Of a stretch of 37,817 bases of DNA, positions 1 through 11,472 are shown piece after piece. Under the pieces are notes generated by a model. The model had not been told where the DNA came from and ran no database searches. It saw only the letters and a program-made list of their open reading frames with translations. The DNA lies in the NCBI GenBank assembly GCA_902590705.1, contig CACIXU010000017.1, positions 1-37,817 on the forward strand, written 5' to 3'. The position numbers and the translations under genes were made by a program. Position 1 is the first letter of the stretch; the number at the start of each line of letters is the position of its first letter. This stretch comes from an uncultured Bacteroidota bacterium. GTDB taxonomy: Bacteria > Bacteroidota > Bacteroidia > Flavobacteriales > Flavobacteriaceae.

Positions 1-46
1 CTATTGTAAGAGTTCCGTCACGGTCGATAAAAAGTACTTTTTTCAT
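1..46 (-). CDS. hisB: HisB N-terminus (histidinol-phosphatase / IGP dehydratase), cut by window edge
   Basis: Only the first 15 codons are present, reading MKKVLFIDRDGTLTI. The segment FIDRDGT is the DxDGT nucleophile motif of HAD-family phosphatases, which opens the histidinol-phosphatase domain of bifunctional HisB. The start codon overlaps the hisC stop in an ATGA arrangement, so the two are translationally coupled. hisB following hisG-hisD-hisC is a familiar order in Bacteroidota. The rest of the gene, and whether the imidazoleglycerol-phosphate dehydratase half is fused, lies outside the window. Confidence 0.85.
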   Translation of the reverse strand, partial: MKKVLFIDRDGTLTI

Positions 47-1092
47 AGATCAATAGTTTTACAAATCTCAATGAATTTAATATTTTCTTTGGGAGTTCCT
101 ACTGTAACCCTTAAAGTGTTTTTACACCCTTGTAAATGTGATCGATTTCTTAAAACTATACCAGCATCTAAGAATTGATCATATCTTTTGTTAGCATTAT
201 CTACGACAACTAAAAGGAAGTTTGCGTCACTAGGATATATTTTTGTTATAAAGTCAAATTGCTTTAATTCCTGTTCAAGCTTTTTTCTCTCTGAAATAAG
301 CTCAATTACTTGATCCTTTATAGATTCAGTCTCGCCTAATTTTACTAGTGCTCGACTCTGAGTTAGGGAGTTTACATTGTAAGGGGGCTTTATTTTATTA
401 AAATAATCAATTACCAATGGATTGGCAAAACACATTCCAAGTCGAATTCCTGCTAACCCATATGCCTTTGAAAATGTTTGACAAACCAATAGTTGGGGGT
501 ATTGATCTAAAATACTCAATGCACTTTTCTCTTGAGAGAAGTCAATGTATGCCTCATCAATAACTATAATACCGCTAAAACTCTTTAATAATTCCTTTAT
601 TTGGTCAAATGGGATAGAATTTCCCGATGGATTGTTGGGAGAACAAACAAAAATAATTTTAGTCTTTGGATTTACAGCCTCAATAACTGAATCTATCTCA
701 ATTTCAAAGTTTTTGTTCAGGGGGACTTCTTTAACACTAACATTGTTTAGCTTAGCCAAAACAGCATACATAGCATACGTAGGTGGTAACACAAGTACTT
801 CTTCCTCTCCGGGCTCACAAAAAGTCCGGATAATTAAATCCAATACCTCATCACTACCGTTACCCAGGAGGATTTGTTCTTCATTCACCTGCTTAATCTT
901 CGCTATGATTCGTTTGAGGTTTCTTTGTAGAGGGTCTGGGTAACGATTTACACCATTATCAAATGGATTTTCATTTGCATCCAGAAAAATCTTTTGGGCA
1001 TCAAAATCCTTAAACTCGTCTCTTGCAGAACGATAAGGATTAACCTTTCTAATCATTGGACGAACAAGTTTTTCTATAATATCTTGTTTCAT
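43..1092 (-). CDS. hisC: Histidinol-phosphate aminotransferase
   Basis: This 349-aa class I/II PLP aminotransferase interconverts imidazole acetol phosphate and histidinol phosphate with glutamate as amino donor. Visible landmarks are the substrate-contact segment DANENP (38-43), SPNNPSG (151-157), the cofactor Asp in VIDEAY (near 179), the Schiff-base lysine K209 in FSKAYGLAG, and the phosphate-binding arginine R217 in GIRLG. Length fits the family. It sits third in the his operon; its start overlaps the hisD stop (ATGA) and its stop overlaps hisB, so coupled translation is likely. Nothing looks damaged. Confidence 0.96.
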   Translation of the reverse strand: MKQDIIEKLVRPMIRKVNPYRSARDEFKDFDAQKIFLDANENPFDNGVNRYPDPLQRNLKRIIAKIKQVNEEQILLGNGSDEVLDLIIRTFCEPGEEEVLVLPPTYAMYAVLAKLNNVSVKEVPLNKNFEIEIDSVIEAVNPKTKIIFVCSPNNPSGNSIPFDQIKELLKSFSGIIVIDEAYIDFSQEKSALSILDQYPQLLVCQTFSKAYGLAGIRLGMCFANPLVIDYFNKIKPPYNVNSLTQSRALVKLGETESIKDQVIELISERKKLEQELKQFDFITKIYPSDANFLLVVVDNANKRYDQFLDAGIVLRNRSHLQGCKNTLRVTVGTPKENIKFIEICKTIDL

Positions 1093-2375
1093 TGCTTTAG
1101 AGTTTTTAATCGAATTGATACTGCATTTTTGTGGGCTTCAAGACCCTCAGCAGCTGCCATTTCCTCAACTACAGGACCCAAATCAACCAATCCATTGGCA
1201 GTAATTTTCTGATAAGTGATGGCTTTCAGAAAGCTATCAAGATTAACTCCGCTGTATTGCCTAACATAACCATTTGTTGGTAAAGTATGATTAGTACCCG
1301 AGGCATAGTCTCCAGCACTCTCTGGAGTGTAATTCCCTATAAATACTGAACCTGCGTGTTTGATTAGGTCTATAAATTCAGTTTCGTTTTCCAAACAAAC
1401 AATCAAGTGTTCGGCTCCATAAAGGTTGACAAATTCTATCATGTCTTTGTTGTTATCGAAACAGATAACTTTAGAATTATTCAATGCTTTTTGAGCTGTA
1501 ACCTTTCTTTCAAGATTTTCGAGCTGCTCAGAAATTTTTTCAAAAGTAGTGTCAGCAATTTTAATATTATTGGTGACAAGAATTACTTGACTGTCAGGTC
1601 CGTGCTCAGCCTGAGAAAGTAAATCTGACGCTATAAAATCGGGATTTCCTGTTTTATCAGCTACTACCATAAGCTCGCTAGGACCTGCAGGCATATCGAT
1701 AGCTACTTGATATTGAGTAGCCAATTGTTTTGCTACAGTTACAAACTGGTTCCCTGGCCCGAATATTTTGTCCGCTTTTGGAATTGATTCCGTCCCAAGG
1801 GTCATTCCTGCTATGGCCTGCATCCCACCAACCTTAAATATGCGGTCTACACCACATAAATTAGCAGTATAAAGTATTACATCAGGTAGCATGCCTTTAT
1901 TATCTGGTGGTGAGCATAATATAATTTCATTACACCCTGCTATTTTTGCAGGGACTGCCAACATTAATACTGTAGAAAATAAAGGAGCTGATCCACCAGG
2001 TATATATAAGCCTACTCTTTCAATAGGTAATTTTTTTTGCCAGCAACTCACCCCTGGTTGAGTTTCAACTTGAACGGTTGAAGTAATTTGTGCCTTGTGA
2101 AATACTTCAATATTGTTCTTTGCTTTTTGAATCGCAATTTTCAACTTTTTGGGAATTTTTTGAGATGCAGCAGATATCTCATCAGAGCTAACCATATTTG
2201 ATTCCAGCTGAACCTTGTCAAACTTGAGAGTATAACTTCTAATGGCAAGATCACCCTCTTTTTCAACTTTTTTAAAAATTGATTTAGCAAGTGGCTCTAA
2301 CGAATCATAGGAAGCTGAGGATCTTTTAGTAAGCGACTTCCAAGTACTTTTGTCAGGATTAATAAACCTTTTCAT
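1089..2375 (-). CDS. hisD: Histidinol dehydrogenase
   Basis: This 428-aa enzyme carries out the last two steps of histidine synthesis, the NAD- and zinc-dependent oxidation of L-histidinol to L-histidine. The expected zinc ligands are present: Q255 and H258 in SQAEHG, D356 in AGDYASG, and H415 in GLEAHKN. The acid/base pair E322-H323 lies in GAEHL. The glycine-rich segments YIPGGSAP (124-131) and FGPGNQFV (205-212) are typical. It shares one base with the hisG stop and overlaps hisC by 4 bp. Length and residues are normal for a monofunctional HisD. Confidence 0.97.
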   Translation of the reverse strand: MKRFINPDKSTWKSLTKRSSASYDSLEPLAKSIFKKVEKEGDLAIRSYTLKFDKVQLESNMVSSDEISAASQKIPKKLKIAIQKAKNNIEVFHKAQITSTVQVETQPGVSCWQKKLPIERVGLYIPGGSAPLFSTVLMLAVPAKIAGCNEIILCSPPDNKGMLPDVILYTANLCGVDRIFKVGGMQAIAGMTLGTESIPKADKIFGPGNQFVTVAKQLATQYQVAIDMPAGPSELMVVADKTGNPDFIASDLLSQAEHGPDSQVILVTNNIKIADTTFEKISEQLENLERKVTAQKALNNSKVICFDNNKDMIEFVNLYGAEHLIVCLENETEFIDLIKHAGSVFIGNYTPESAGDYASGTNHTLPTNGYVRQYSGVNLDSFLKAITYQKITANGLVDLGPVVEEMAAAEGLEAHKNAVSIRLKTLKQ

Positions 2376-3226
2376 TACAAAACCATTTTTTCAATTGGAC
2401 AGACTAATATATCTTCAGCTCCAGCGGTTTTAAGTGCATCAATTACATCCCAAAAGGAGTCTTCGTCGATTACTGAATGTAGAGATGACCACCCCTCTTG
2501 CGCAAGTGGTAAGACAGTTGGACTTTTTAAAACGGGCAGAATATCACTTATTTCATTGATTTTATTATTAGGAGTATTCAAAAGAATGTATTTAGATTTT
2601 TTGGCTCTTAACACAGATCGCAATCTAAAGTTGAGTTTTTTCATTAGCTCAGTCTTTTCGGCAGACAATTTGGGGGCTTTTACCAGTACTGACTCAGACC
2701 TCATAATCGTTGCGACCTCTTTCAGGTTGTTTTTAAACAAAGTACTACCGCTGGATACGATATCACATATAGCATCTGCCAGTCCTATATTAGGAGCAAT
2801 CTCTACAGATCCATTAATAATGTGAAGATCTGCCGAGATTCCATTTTCATTTAAATACTTTTTGACTGTATTTGGGTATGATGTTGCAATTTTTTTTCCA
2901 TTTAAATCCTCAATTCCATTATAATTAAAATCTTTAGGAACTGCAATTGATACCCGACATTTAGAAAACCCTAATTTTTCAACAACAGTAAGATCTTGTC
3001 CTTTTTCAAGGATTAAGTTCTCACCAATAATTGCTAAATCAACAACCCCATCTCGTAAATACTGAGGAATATCACCATTACGAAGGTAAAGAACCTCTAA
3101 AGGATAGTTTCTGGCGACAGCTTTTAGCTGGTCTTTGCCATTATCTATAGATATTCCACATTTTTTTAGGATGTCAAGAGAGTCCTCGTTTAGACGTCCA
3201 GCTTTTTGAATTGCAATTTTGATCAT
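2375..3226 (-). CDS. hisG: ATP phosphoribosyltransferase, long form
   Basis: This enzyme condenses ATP with PRPP, the first committed step of histidine synthesis. At 283 aa it is the long form, with a C-terminal ACT-like HisG_C regulatory domain (about 205-283) that usually binds histidine for feedback inhibition and makes HisZ unnecessary. The PRPP-binding region is recognisable as ADAICDIVSSGSTL. It is the first gene of the his operon. The ATG at 3226 lies 14 bp beyond the U-tract of the upstream terminator hairpin, so expression probably depends on readthrough of that attenuator. Confidence 0.95.
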   Translation of the reverse strand: MIKIAIQKAGRLNEDSLDILKKCGISIDNGKDQLKAVARNYPLEVLYLRNGDIPQYLRDGVVDLAIIGENLILEKGQDLTVVEKLGFSKCRVSIAVPKDFNYNGIEDLNGKKIATSYPNTVKKYLNENGISADLHIINGSVEIAPNIGLADAICDIVSSGSTLFKNNLKEVATIMRSESVLVKAPKLSAEKTELMKKLNFRLRSVLRAKKSKYILLNTPNNKINEISDILPVLKSPTVLPLAQEGWSSLHSVIDEDSFWDVIDALKTAGAEDILVCPIEKMVL

Positions 3227-3240
3227 AATTAAAATAGTTT

Positions 3241-3276
3241 AAAAAAAAACCCGTTTGAAGAAGTCAAACGGGTTTT
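3241..3276 (-). terminator. His-operon attenuator terminator
   Basis: On the minus strand a perfect 13-bp stem (arms at 3276-3264 and 3258-3246, 5-nt loop) has the core CCCGTTTGA/TCAAACGGG and runs into nine U residues ending at 3241. It lies between the leader promoter and hisG, so it must be read through for hisG to be expressed. No other hairpin is visible after the prohibitin-like gene, so it may also end transcripts of that upstream operon. Confidence 0.85.
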
Positions 3277-3299
3277 AAGTATGAATAATACATTACTCC

Positions 3300-3353
3300 T
3301 CACCTCATTTGAGCGAAAGTAAGAAGATGTGTATGTACGTTTAGGAGAATCAT
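3300..3353 (-). CDS. Candidate histidine leader peptide (17 aa)
   Basis: A short frame encodes MILLNVHTHLLTFAQMR followed by TGA. Two of its 17 codons are His (3335-3333 and 3329-3327), separated by one Thr. It begins only 4 nt after a -7 promoter element, so it may be translated almost without a leader. A ribosome paused at the second His codon would leave 3312-3303 exposed; one reaching the stop would cover it. That segment can pair with the 5' arm of the downstream terminator. The coding role is inferred from position and this geometry. Two His codons is modest for a leader peptide. Confidence 0.55.
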   Translation of the reverse strand: MILLNVHTHLLTFAQMR

Positions 3354-3357
3354 TATG

Positions 3358-3365
3358 CAAATATA
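3358..3365 (-). promoter_or_regulatory. His leader promoter, -7 element
   Basis: TATATTTG on the minus strand matches the Bacteroidota -7 consensus TANNTTTG exactly. Transcription would start about 5 nt downstream, at or next to the leader-peptide ATG at 3353. The best upstream TTTG lies 15 nt away, closer than the usual spacing, so the -33 element is weak or absent. Confidence 0.65.
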
Positions 3366-3396: not shown

Positions 3397-4215
3397 TTAT
3401 TGACCTCCTAAAATGATAGGCATTCCATCTTCTCCACTACCAATTACAATAACCTTAGCATTTGGAGAAGTTGAAAGTTCCTTAGTGGCCTCAATTCCTT
3501 TTTCTTTTAGGATCATATTGGTTATAGAGGCGCTTAATATTCGATTTGCAGCAGCCTTACCCTCTGCATCTATTCTCTGTTTTTCAGCTTCTTGTTTAGC
3601 TTTTTCAATACGAAACTCGTATTCTAAGGCTTCTTGTTCTTGGATTAACTTTCTCTCAATACCCTCTTTTATGGCCAAAGGAAGAGAAACATCTCTAACT
3701 AATACTGCGTTCAGTTGAATGTGTTGGTTTTCGACAACCTTTTGAGTTTCCTCGTATATTTCGTTTTGAATTGCGTCTCTTTTTGTAGAATATAATTGTT
3801 CTGGAGTATATCGTCCAACAACACTTCTAGCGACAGCTCGTATTTGTGGAATTAAAACAATATTAACATAGTTTTCTCCTTTAGTTTTATGTAACAGCCC
3901 TAATTCATTATAAATTGGTTGATACAATACTGATACATCCAATGAGATTTCTAATCCATTAGAGGAAAGAACTTGCATATTTCCTTCAAAAAATTCTTGT
4001 TGCTTGACATTATATATGTATACTTTATTCCAAGGAGCAATGATGTGAAACCCCTCTGATAAAGGAGCTTTATCTGTTACCACCCCTCCTCCAAAGGTTT
4101 TAAATAACACTCCAGCCTCACCATAACCAATATTTATGGATGATTTTGAAACAAAGATAATTAGCACAAACGCTAATAAAATAATAGGTAATCCAATTTT
4201 AGGTAATTTTTGCAT
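3397..4215 (-). CDS. Prohibitin-like SPFH/band 7 membrane protein
   Basis: This 272-aa protein has one N-terminal transmembrane segment (about 6-25), then an SPFH/band 7 domain (about 29-190), then a charged helical stretch (about 190-235) containing EKAKQEAEKQ, likely a coiled coil for ring assembly. Such prohibitin/HflC relatives form large membrane-anchored rings, often modulating FtsH-type proteases or membrane domains; its specific partner here is unknown. It is the last gene of the lpxD-to-fabG run, 11 bp after fabG, and no separate terminator follows it before the his leader. Confidence 0.85.
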   Translation of the reverse strand: MQKLPKIGLPIILLAFVLIIFVSKSSINIGYGEAGVLFKTFGGGVVTDKAPLSEGFHIIAPWNKVYIYNVKQQEFFEGNMQVLSSNGLEISLDVSVLYQPIYNELGLLHKTKGENYVNIVLIPQIRAVARSVVGRYTPEQLYSTKRDAIQNEIYEETQKVVENQHIQLNAVLVRDVSLPLAIKEGIERKLIQEQEALEYEFRIEKAKQEAEKQRIDAEGKAAANRILSASITNMILKEKGIEATKELSTSPNAKVIVIGSGEDGMPIILGGQ

Positions 4216-9918: not shown

Positions 9919-11472
9919 ATGAGCTCAATTAAAATTCTTTGGGTAGACGATGAGATCGATTTGTTGAGACCTCACCTTATATTTTTAGAGCAAAGAGACT
10001 ATAAAATAGTGCCATGTAATAACGGCCAAGATGCTTTGACTCAAATTAAATCGAACTTGTTTGATGCTGTTCTTTTGGATGAGAATATGCCTGGTCTAAA
10101 TGGTTTAGAAACCCTTAATGAGATTAAATCTATTTTCCCTAATCTTCCTGTAATTATGATTACTAAAAATGAGGAGGAGCAAATCATGGAAGAGGCTATA
10201 GGTTCCAAAATTTCAGATTACTTGATTAAGCCAGTCAATCCTCACCAAATTTTACTTGCATTGAAGAAATTGTTTCAACATAAAAATTTAATTCAAGAAA
10301 AAACGATTAATAATTACCAACAAGAGTTTCGAAAAATATCTCTTGAGTTAAGTGAGTTAGGTACACATGAGGAATGGATAGATTTTTATCTAAAAATGGT
10401 ATACTGGGAAATGGAGCTAGAGAGCCTAGAGGACCTTGGAATGCTTGAGATTTTTCAGAATCAGATGAAAGAAGCTAACCGGTTTTTTGCCAAATTCATT
10501 TCTCAAAACTATACTAATTGGATTCAAGACAGCATTGGACCAATATTATCTGATCAAATTTTAAAGGAAAAACTATTTCCCAGAATTAAAAAGGGTGATA
10601 AAAAAACTACTCTATTACTTATTATAGATAATTTAAGGTATGATCAGTGGAAAATGATTTCCCCTATAATACAAGATTATTATCTAATTGAAGAAGAATT
10701 TCCTTACTTCAGTATACTTCCAACAGCAACCCATTATGCTAGAAATGCAATTTTTTCAGGATTGATGCCTTCAGAAATGGAAAAACATCATCCTGATTTA
10801 TGGGTAAATGAAAACGATAAAGGTGGGAAAAATTTGAATGAAAAAAGTTTTCTAAAGTCACAACTAAAAAGAAACGAGTTAAATTTAAGGTTTAATTATT
10901 CAAAGATCACAAATTTAAAAGCAGGTCGGGATTTAGTCGCTCAAATACAGAATTACCAAAACGAAGATCTTCTTGTTGTGGTTTACAACTTTGTTGACAT
11001 GATTTCTCATGCCAAAACCGATATGGAAATTATAAAGGAATTGGCATCAGACAATAAAGCGTTTAGATCATTAACCCTTTCGTGGTTTAAAAACTCCCCC
11101 CTTTTGGAGGTTATCCAAAAAACCAGTGAATTAGGATTTAACCTTGTAATTACAACAGATCATGGAACGATAAACGTGGATCAAGCAATAGAGGTAATTG
11201 GCACAAGGGAAACCAGTATGAACCTACGATATAAAACTGGACAAAGCATTTCTTTAAAGAGTGGGGAGGTGTTGGAAATCAATGAGCCTAAGAAATTAAA
11301 ACTCCCCTCTGCTCACCTAAACAGCAAATATATTTTTGCTAAAGAACAAGGTTATTTTGTTTATAAAAATAATTTTAATCAGTTCGCAAATCACTTTCGA
11401 AACACGTTTCAACATGGCGGTATATCTATGGAAGAAATGATTATTCCTTTTGTTGTTATGCGTCCTCGATAG
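9919..11472 (+). CDS. porX: PorX: response regulator with PglZ domain (type IX secretion regulation)
   Basis: This 517-aa protein has an N-terminal receiver domain (about 1-120) with acidic pair D10/D11, phospho-acceptor D54 in LLDENMPG, T82 and K104. A helical middle section follows, then an alkaline-phosphatase-superfamily PglZ domain (about 225-517). Metal-site candidates there include D237 in IIDNLR, T271-H272 in ATHYARN, D360, D414-H415 in TTDHG and H499 in QHGG. This architecture and length are those of PorX, the PorX/PorY regulator of the type IX secretion system in Bacteroidota. No PorY, SigP or secretion component is in the window. It is divergent from lpxD across 217 bp and leads porX-tsaE. 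Confidence 0.93.
   Translation: MSSIKILWVDDEIDLLRPHLIFLEQRDYKIVPCNNGQDALTQIKSNLFDAVLLDENMPGLNGLETLNEIKSIFPNLPVIMITKNEEEQIMEEAIGSKISDYLIKPVNPHQILLALKKLFQHKNLIQEKTINNYQQEFRKISLELSELGTHEEWIDFYLKMVYWEMELESLEDLGMLEIFQNQMKEANRFFAKFISQNYTNWIQDSIGPILSDQILKEKLFPRIKKGDKKTTLLLIIDNLRYDQWKMISPIIQDYYLIEEEFPYFSILPTATHYARNAIFSGLMPSEMEKHHPDLWVNENDKGGKNLNEKSFLKSQLKRNELNLRFNYSKITNLKAGRDLVAQIQNYQNEDLLVVVYNFVDMISHAKTDMEIIKELASDNKAFRSLTLSWFKNSPLLEVIQKTSELGFNLVITTDHGTINVDQAIEVIGTRETSMNLRYKTGQSISLKSGEVLEINEPKKLKLPSAHLNSKYIFAKEQGYFVYKNNFNQFANHFRNTFQHGGISMEEMIIPFVVMRPR

Follow-up and report, generated by a model that had tools for sequence, protein, structure and literature searches.

A probable ribosome-mediated attenuator before the his operon of an uncultured Flavobacteriaceae bacterium and its relatives

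Described leaders and the his locus

The his leader of E. coli and Salmonella encodes a peptide with seven His in a row, and its RNA forms either an antiterminator or a terminator, the two being mutually exclusive. A 2004 study of attenuators by Vitreschak et al. reportedly also names Bacteroidetes/Chlorobi in its abstract. The leader analysed here lies before hisG in a stretch of 37,817 nucleotides, the whole of which is called the window. It resembles the E. coli/Salmonella attenuator in its His-codon leader peptide and its mutually exclusive antiterminator and terminator before hisG, and the same logic is proposed for it. Unlike that system, leaders of the window's family hold two to six His codons, a Bacteroidota -7 box stands close to the ATG, and there is no Rfam match.

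A nearer relative has been described by Guerin et al. (2021, PMC9723704), who found a structured 5′ element before hisG of F. psychrophilum and in other Flavobacteriaceae genera, with no Rfam hit. The paper also mentions strong clues for leader-peptide attenuation before amino acid operons. Gene and bacterial family are shared with the window leader, and both lack an Rfam hit; the section on the element gives no structure, His codons or antiterminator for hisG, and the two are compared by description. A homologous leader before F. psychrophilum hisG is likely, as judged from the family-wide conservation presented below. Going by the same section, a conserved hisG 5′ element in F. psychrophilum was already reported (PMC9723704), and what is worked out here is the three hairpins of the window leader, the covariation and a wider spread.

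Other amino acid operons offer further points of comparison. The Bacteroid-trp RNA (RF01692; Weinberg et al. 2010, PMC2864571) has a structure similar to the trp attenuator and is conserved before the F. psychrophilum trp operon, according to another paper (PMC6414381). It shares with the window leader the phylum and a place before an amino acid operon, whereas operon and codons differ. In Bacteroides thetaiotaomicron, a transcriptome study of 2020 describes short frames in long 5′ UTRs that are reminiscent of attenuating leader peptides, in a main text from which the word histidine is absent (PMC7366714). The attenuator RNA of Sinorhizobium meliloti trpL starts with the leader ATG (PMC7298713), and thus leaderless attenuator leaders exist; that case concerns tryptophan, Alphaproteobacteria and a known 5′ end, whereas the start of the window leader is only predicted. 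No direct test of an amino acid attenuator in Bacteroidota was seen in the open-access literature searched.

The window is part of the genome of a marine flavobacterium, 1.93 Mb long and split over 59 contigs; a comparison of HisG gives, as its closest relatives with a name, mostly assemblies of Flavobacteriaceae or Bacteroidetes. The leader is followed, on the minus strand, by hisG (ATP phosphoribosyltransferase with a HisG C-terminal domain, 2375..3226; NCBIfam TIGR00070 and TIGR03455), hisD (histidinol dehydrogenase, 1089..2375; NCBIfam TIGR00069) and hisC (histidinol-phosphate transaminase, 43..1092; NCBIfam TIGR01141), in this order. The same-strand gene directly upstream of the leader (3397-4215, minus strand) has a weak HflK-type match, under the family cut-off. 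Elsewhere in the window, 9919-11472 (plus strand) encodes a response-regulator domain fused to a PglZ domain, a product that we take to resemble PorX of the type IX secretion system.

No family of Rfam 15 exceeds its cut-off in the window, and in the 14 homologous loci scanned the sole hits above cut-off, an SRP RNA and two tRNAs, lie outside the leader. Below threshold, the leader matches anti-hemB best, at 25 bits against a cut-off of 49.5. The Rfam His_leader, which we take to be RF00514, has no match in the window and is absent from the 14 leader matches listed to an E value of 5. The T-box leader, presumably RF00230, gave no covariance-model match over cut-off in window or leader, and Bacteroid-trp (RF01692) gave none in the window or its genome. 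A covariance model of the leader could annotate his operons that Rfam 15 missed, namely those of the window and the 14 loci.

Leader frame, start and terminator

The original prediction placed before hisG a -7 element, a 17-codon frame with His-Thr-His and a U-tailed hairpin, and a base-by-base check on the minus strand found the element, the frame and all coordinates to be right. The -7 box TATATTTG (3358..3365), from which the start site is predicted, is of the TAnnTTTG type, and 4 nt after it comes the ATG (3353-3351) of the leader frame MILLNVHTHLLTFAQMR (3300..3353, ATG to TGA, 17 codons and a stop), which is recognized from both sequence and homologues. Its regulatory codons CAT ACA CAT (3327..3335) set His at 3335-3333 and 3329-3327. 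F. psychrophilum has TAnnTTTG as its sigma-A consensus, a median 5′ UTR of 24 bp and 5.5% leaderless mRNAs (PMC9723704). Among family leaders, 82/122 have an exact TAnnTTTG no more than 45 nt from the leader start, against a shuffled rate of 3.9%; the commonest distance is 7 nt, and 53 leaders have 4-8 nt. A scan for sigma-70 promoters yielded 8 sites where 6.9 were expected. With an assumed offset from the -7 box, transcription is predicted to start at about 3354-3353, at or beside the leader ATG.

To follow the leader across relatives, HisG matches were taken from 166/199 family, 78/148 order, 68/149 class and 171/198 phylum genomes, in samples that overlap. After removal of duplicates, a subset of these matches gave 258 distinct hisG upstreams, made up of returned loci and 92 chosen places. 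A short frame that has two or more His within five codons occurs in 232/258 upstreams against 169/774 dinucleotide shuffles, with a slight bias for the real ones, which were searched to 330 nt while shuffles were 300 nt long. The original prediction had called for a check that the His codons are conserved, and the His frame is indeed present in 122/122 family upstreams, as well as in 39/46 from the order, 60/66 from the class and 11/24 from other classes of the phylum; 13 of these last 24 distinct upstreams have no His frame. Family leaders carry two to six His codons (three to five in 109/122), and only two are found in the window leader and in 10/122 family leaders. The first His is residue 7 in 98/122, and from it to the stop there are 11-13 codons in 113/122.

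The terminator stem consists of segment 3, the 5′ arm AAAACCCGUUUGA (3264..3276), and segment 4, the 3′ arm UCAAACGGGUUUU (3246..3258), which form 13 bp around a 5-nt loop. The perfect 13-bp stem and the nine U's (3241..3249) are as first described, but the U's do not all form a tail: four lie in the stem and five are unpaired. By fixed criteria (a minimum of 8 pairs including 4 G-C, a loop of 3-8 and a T-rich tail), this hairpin (3276-3246) is the sole terminator on both strands of the 37.8 kb, and it is also the only structure that RNAalifold recovers from the whole alignment. At -30.7 kcal/mol, the fold of the 113-nt leader lies far below those of shuffles (-15.1, sd 2.9; z = -5.5; 0/200 as good). 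Such strong structure, together with the reading of segment 2 in different frames described below, might speak for a leader that senses histidine or tRNA-His directly, like a riboswitch or T-box, without translation and with His codons that are incidental. This is extremely unlikely in view of the window, where no Rfam family reaches its cut-off, and of what is conserved, namely two to six in-frame His codons that begin at residue 7 in 98/122 leaders.

The attenuation logic first proposed is largely right, and most of the relatives covered share the design, with its His codons and terminator. Frame and terminator occur together in 207/258 upstreams against 1/774 shuffles, or by scope in 118/122 family, 38/46 order, 43/66 class and 8/24 phylum upstreams; all these counts are lower bounds, as the terminator detector misses mismatched or odd-tailed hairpins, some of which were seen by eye (L049, L065, L078, L090, L179, L190, L193, L195, L199). 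The four family upstreams that miss a terminator call show the hairpin on folding. At 8/24, the leader is found in a minority of upstreams from other classes. Among the first 111 loci, 102/102 distinct upstreams have the hairpin (by pattern, with up to three mismatches) as well as a frame that contains two His or more.

A covariance model, R1, was built from 63 leaders and run on 199 family genomes, some of which were sources of its training leaders. It matches 166/166 hisG-bearing genomes, with a weakest E value of 3.0e-6. Among the 33 hisG-less genomes (20 named as such and 13 inferred from their absence among HisG matches), 20 have no R1 match, 12 match weakly (E 8e-6 to 8e-4) and a single genome, G027, matches strongly (E 7e-14). 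Weak R1 matches at about 35-42 bits were considered as leaders and rejected, the 11 readable ones being ordinary terminators of other genes.

One may argue that the hairpin is a mere terminator of the upstream gene at 3397-4215 and that the short frame and the antiterminator are there by chance. That gene does end at 3397 on the same strand, and no other terminator was found by the fixed criteria between it and hisG. However, an upstream-gene terminator hardly explains why the His frame accompanies a terminator in 207 of the 258 hisG upstreams and in only one of the 774 shuffles, why the leader model tracks hisG (166/166 genomes with the gene, and strongly in 1/33 of the others) or why a -7 box precedes the frame by no more than 45 nt in 82/122 family leaders, and it is accordingly very unlikely.

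Antiterminator and protector pairings

Attenuation as first proposed includes an antiterminator that competes with the terminator. Its strand, segment 2, is UCAAAUGAGG (3303..3312, minus strand) in the last codons of the frame, and it pairs with CCCGUUUGA (3272-3264), the part of segment 3 that has both partners, through one G-U pair and with one bulged A. This 2:3 pairing exists as it was drawn, but in the window alone it is not significant, 7/100 linker shuffles being as good. Thus, its weight comes from homologues only, the window sequence by itself being unremarkable. No more than 5/100 shuffles are as good in 102/117 family, 30/38 order, 19/43 class and 8/8 phylum leaders, and more than 5/100 are as good in 47/206 leaders, of which 15 are from the family, 8 from the order and 24 from the class.

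Covariation was assessed in 72 diverse leaders from 11 chosen families, and distant families that could not be aligned entered the foreign-arm test only; since families and relatives are non-independent, the p values and shuffle counts given here serve as a guide only. Sixty-three of the 72 form alignment A1, which is based on sequence only and in which segment 2 has the consensus CUCAAGCGAG. The nine others (L072, L140, L148, L149, L150, L153, L157, L171, L253) were left out because of bad alignment or other segments, an omission that favours the structure. Within A1, 89.6% of the 2:3 cells are paired, against 87.9% in shuffled alignments (0/500 as high) and 18-48% with slid partners. The covariation score is 0.176 against 0.146 (0/500), and 12 cells are double-changed against 5.7 (1/500 as high). 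At one pair, A-U is replaced by G-C in 9/63 sequences, and in 12/72 of the wider set. Further pair types, one of the five measures, are not above shuffles in the 63 leaders (155/500); a slide of -3 gives 17 double-change cells against 12 in the real register, with only 17.6% of its cells pairing, and many sequences break the outermost pairs (34 and 17 of the 63). In the 72 leaders, 86% of cells are paired and 20 double changes stand against a shuffled mean of 9.7 (0/500), 12 of the 20 being a single A-U to G-C replacement.

The covariation sought by the original prediction is thereby found in the terminator and, between families, in the antiterminator, but inside the window's family it is not significant for the latter, with 3 double changes and with shuffles reaching the paired count in 28/500 and the double changes in 46/500. 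The foreign-arm test, with arms cut to 14 nt, covered 35 families. Pairing of the leader end scores -9.1 kcal/mol with the own arm and -7.0 kcal/mol with unlike foreign arms; the own arm beats the mean foreign arm in 26/35 families (Wilcoxon p ~9e-5) and the own core beats foreign cores on the same arm in 24/35, while some families fail, such as L215 and L178. A first rank test, in which each family's own partner stood among all 35, was blunt because the arm is shared by many families, and it was repeated with foreign arms only. On this comparative evidence, the antiterminator pairing is kept via compensatory change, chiefly between families.

The reading frame of segment 2 is Q-A-R in about 87 and S-N-E in about 21 of 117 family leaders (88 and 20 by script, 60 of the 88 being printed, with L037, L043 and L044 reassigned by eye). 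In the remaining 9, L017 and L083 carry the strand after the stop and the others are off-register script matches. Being read in two frames, the strand is kept as RNA and not as peptide. This bears on a further possibility, that the nascent peptide itself arrests the ribosome, as in TnaC or Erm leaders, rather than the ribosome waiting for charged tRNA-His. A short peptide with a fairly fixed distance from His to stop (11-13 codons in 113/122) would suit such arrest; against it, the peptide is unconserved outside the His codons, its C-terminal codons are read in two frames and the frames of L017 and L083 end before segment 2, so that arrest by the peptide is hardly credible.

A ribosome that waits at His codons would act on a further hairpin, which the original structure had missed and without which it was incomplete. 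The 5′ arm, segment 1 (3316..3334, minus strand), overlaps the His codons, and the 3′ arm (3288..3306, minus strand) overlaps the antiterminator strand and the stop, both as placed by the minimum-energy fold. In single folds, at least three protector pairs fall inside the His codons in 114/116 family, 37/38 order, 40/43 class and 4/8 phylum leaders, and the protector part folds with z < -2 in 97/116 family leaders. RNAalifold recovered no consensus 1:2 hairpin from the whole alignment or from the part upstream of the terminator, probably because this region aligns poorly, and the hairpin was therefore judged sequence by sequence. The pairing 3334-3316/3306-3288 corresponds to the 1:2 or protector hairpin of trp-type attenuators and completes the switch logic.

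The proposed switch and its variants

The effect of a paused ribosome was modelled by refolding on geometry only, the ribosome being assumed to reach 12 nt beyond the first base of the A site. With the ribosome on the last His codon and RNA made up to the terminator loop, 2:3 forms in 114/116 family, 28/38 order, 30/43 class and 7/8 phylum leaders; with shuffled linkers, the same refolding gives 2:3 in 17-30%, and in 30% for the family. The stalled state of the window leader, at -14.6 kcal/mol, adds a tenth pair and a small inner hairpin to the nine pairs drawn originally. When the ribosome is placed at the stop instead, all 205 leaders tested form 3:4. Hence the idea that a stall frees segment 2 and a ribosome at the stop covers it is borne out in these states, but the full-length RNA prefers the terminator even when the ribosome is stalled, in 115/116 family, 38/38 order, 41/43 class and 6/8 phylum leaders. 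Thus, the switch must be kinetic, with the antiterminator forming first.

These results point to transcription attenuation of the his operon mediated by the ribosome, with the three-hairpin logic of the trp/his type, a reading to which we give a probability of about 0.92. Anatomy, conservation and covariation are seen directly, and we infer where transcription starts, that the frame is translated, that a ribosome pauses on it and that the leader responds to histidine. If the leader is not translated, the region of the His codons would pair around and after the stop (1:2), segment 2 would be hidden and the 3:4 terminator would form. When charged tRNA-His is scarce, a ribosome would pause at codons 7-9 and melt 1:2; its 3′ edge, with the assumed footprint, would lie at about 3318 and leave segment 2 (3312-3303) free. 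Once free, segment 2 would pair with 3272-3264 of segment 3 ahead of the synthesis of segment 4, and transcription would continue into hisG. With plentiful histidine, the ribosome would reach the stop and cover segment 2, and 3:4 would end transcription. In classical attenuation, the first ribosome must closely trail RNA polymerase. A leader of this kind that is kept across many families implies ribosome-polymerase coupling there and would be a ready reporter for it.

A terminator that is kept where the His frame is lost, the case named originally as one that would speak against attenuation, does not occur in the 122 family upstreams, but it does occur in family f16, with genomes of about 600 kb. 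All seven f16 upstreams fetched (L158, L161, L162, L163, L172, L173, L174) are without a His frame and retain the TATATTTG box and a GC-poor hairpin; in L158, L172 and L173 the frame is ATG-CAT-TAA. Because 122/122 distinct family upstreams keep the His frame, the f16 state is read as a loss, and it looks like attenuator decay in reduced, endosymbiont-like genomes.

Other leaders have His-rich frames and no recognizable strong U-tailed terminator: L231-L234 (f55), L216 and L222 (f30), L254, L258 and L259 (f90), L204 (f17), L227 (f46) and L217 (f64). Several of the f55 and f30 leaders have a hairpin that overlaps the stop or the final His codons. Another output, through Rho or translation, is possible for the terminator-less leaders. 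Taken together, the his leaders of Bacteroidota might represent one ancient attenuator class, near-universal in the window's class, whose peptide is started without a Shine-Dalgarno at or within a few bases of the RNA 5′ end. Whole segments would have been exchanged for other sequences (the window's family has CUCAAGCGAGG/CCCGUUUGAG, and types such as GGUAAGCC/GGCUUACC occur elsewhere) with the logic kept, and several families would have dropped the U-tailed terminator but not the His codons and come to use, for example, Rho-dependent termination or control of hisG translation. This joint reading is tentative and may well prove wrong.

Two strong matches of R1 stand apart from an intact hisG. 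In G027, a full leader (L298, C11, minus strand) is followed by a hisG-like start without a 100-aa frame, as read by eye, and thus the leader seems to outlive a decayed gene. G138, which has a leader before hisG, carries a second strong one (L299, C126) about 400 bases from the end of its contig; it may be a duplicate assembly or a second his locus.

Finally, a second short frame in the window, MYYSYLKPV (3293-3264, minus strand), ends inside the terminator arm. It was considered as a second sensor and rejected as chance, as relatives do not conserve it; a version with an in-frame ATG is present in 17/114 family arms. In genus g127, the second frame reads MHVNHHILKPV, with His codons. Thirty g127 loci were fetched and the arm was readable in 12 (plus orientation), of which 7 have the frame and 5 are without it (L302, L303, L312, L326, L328).
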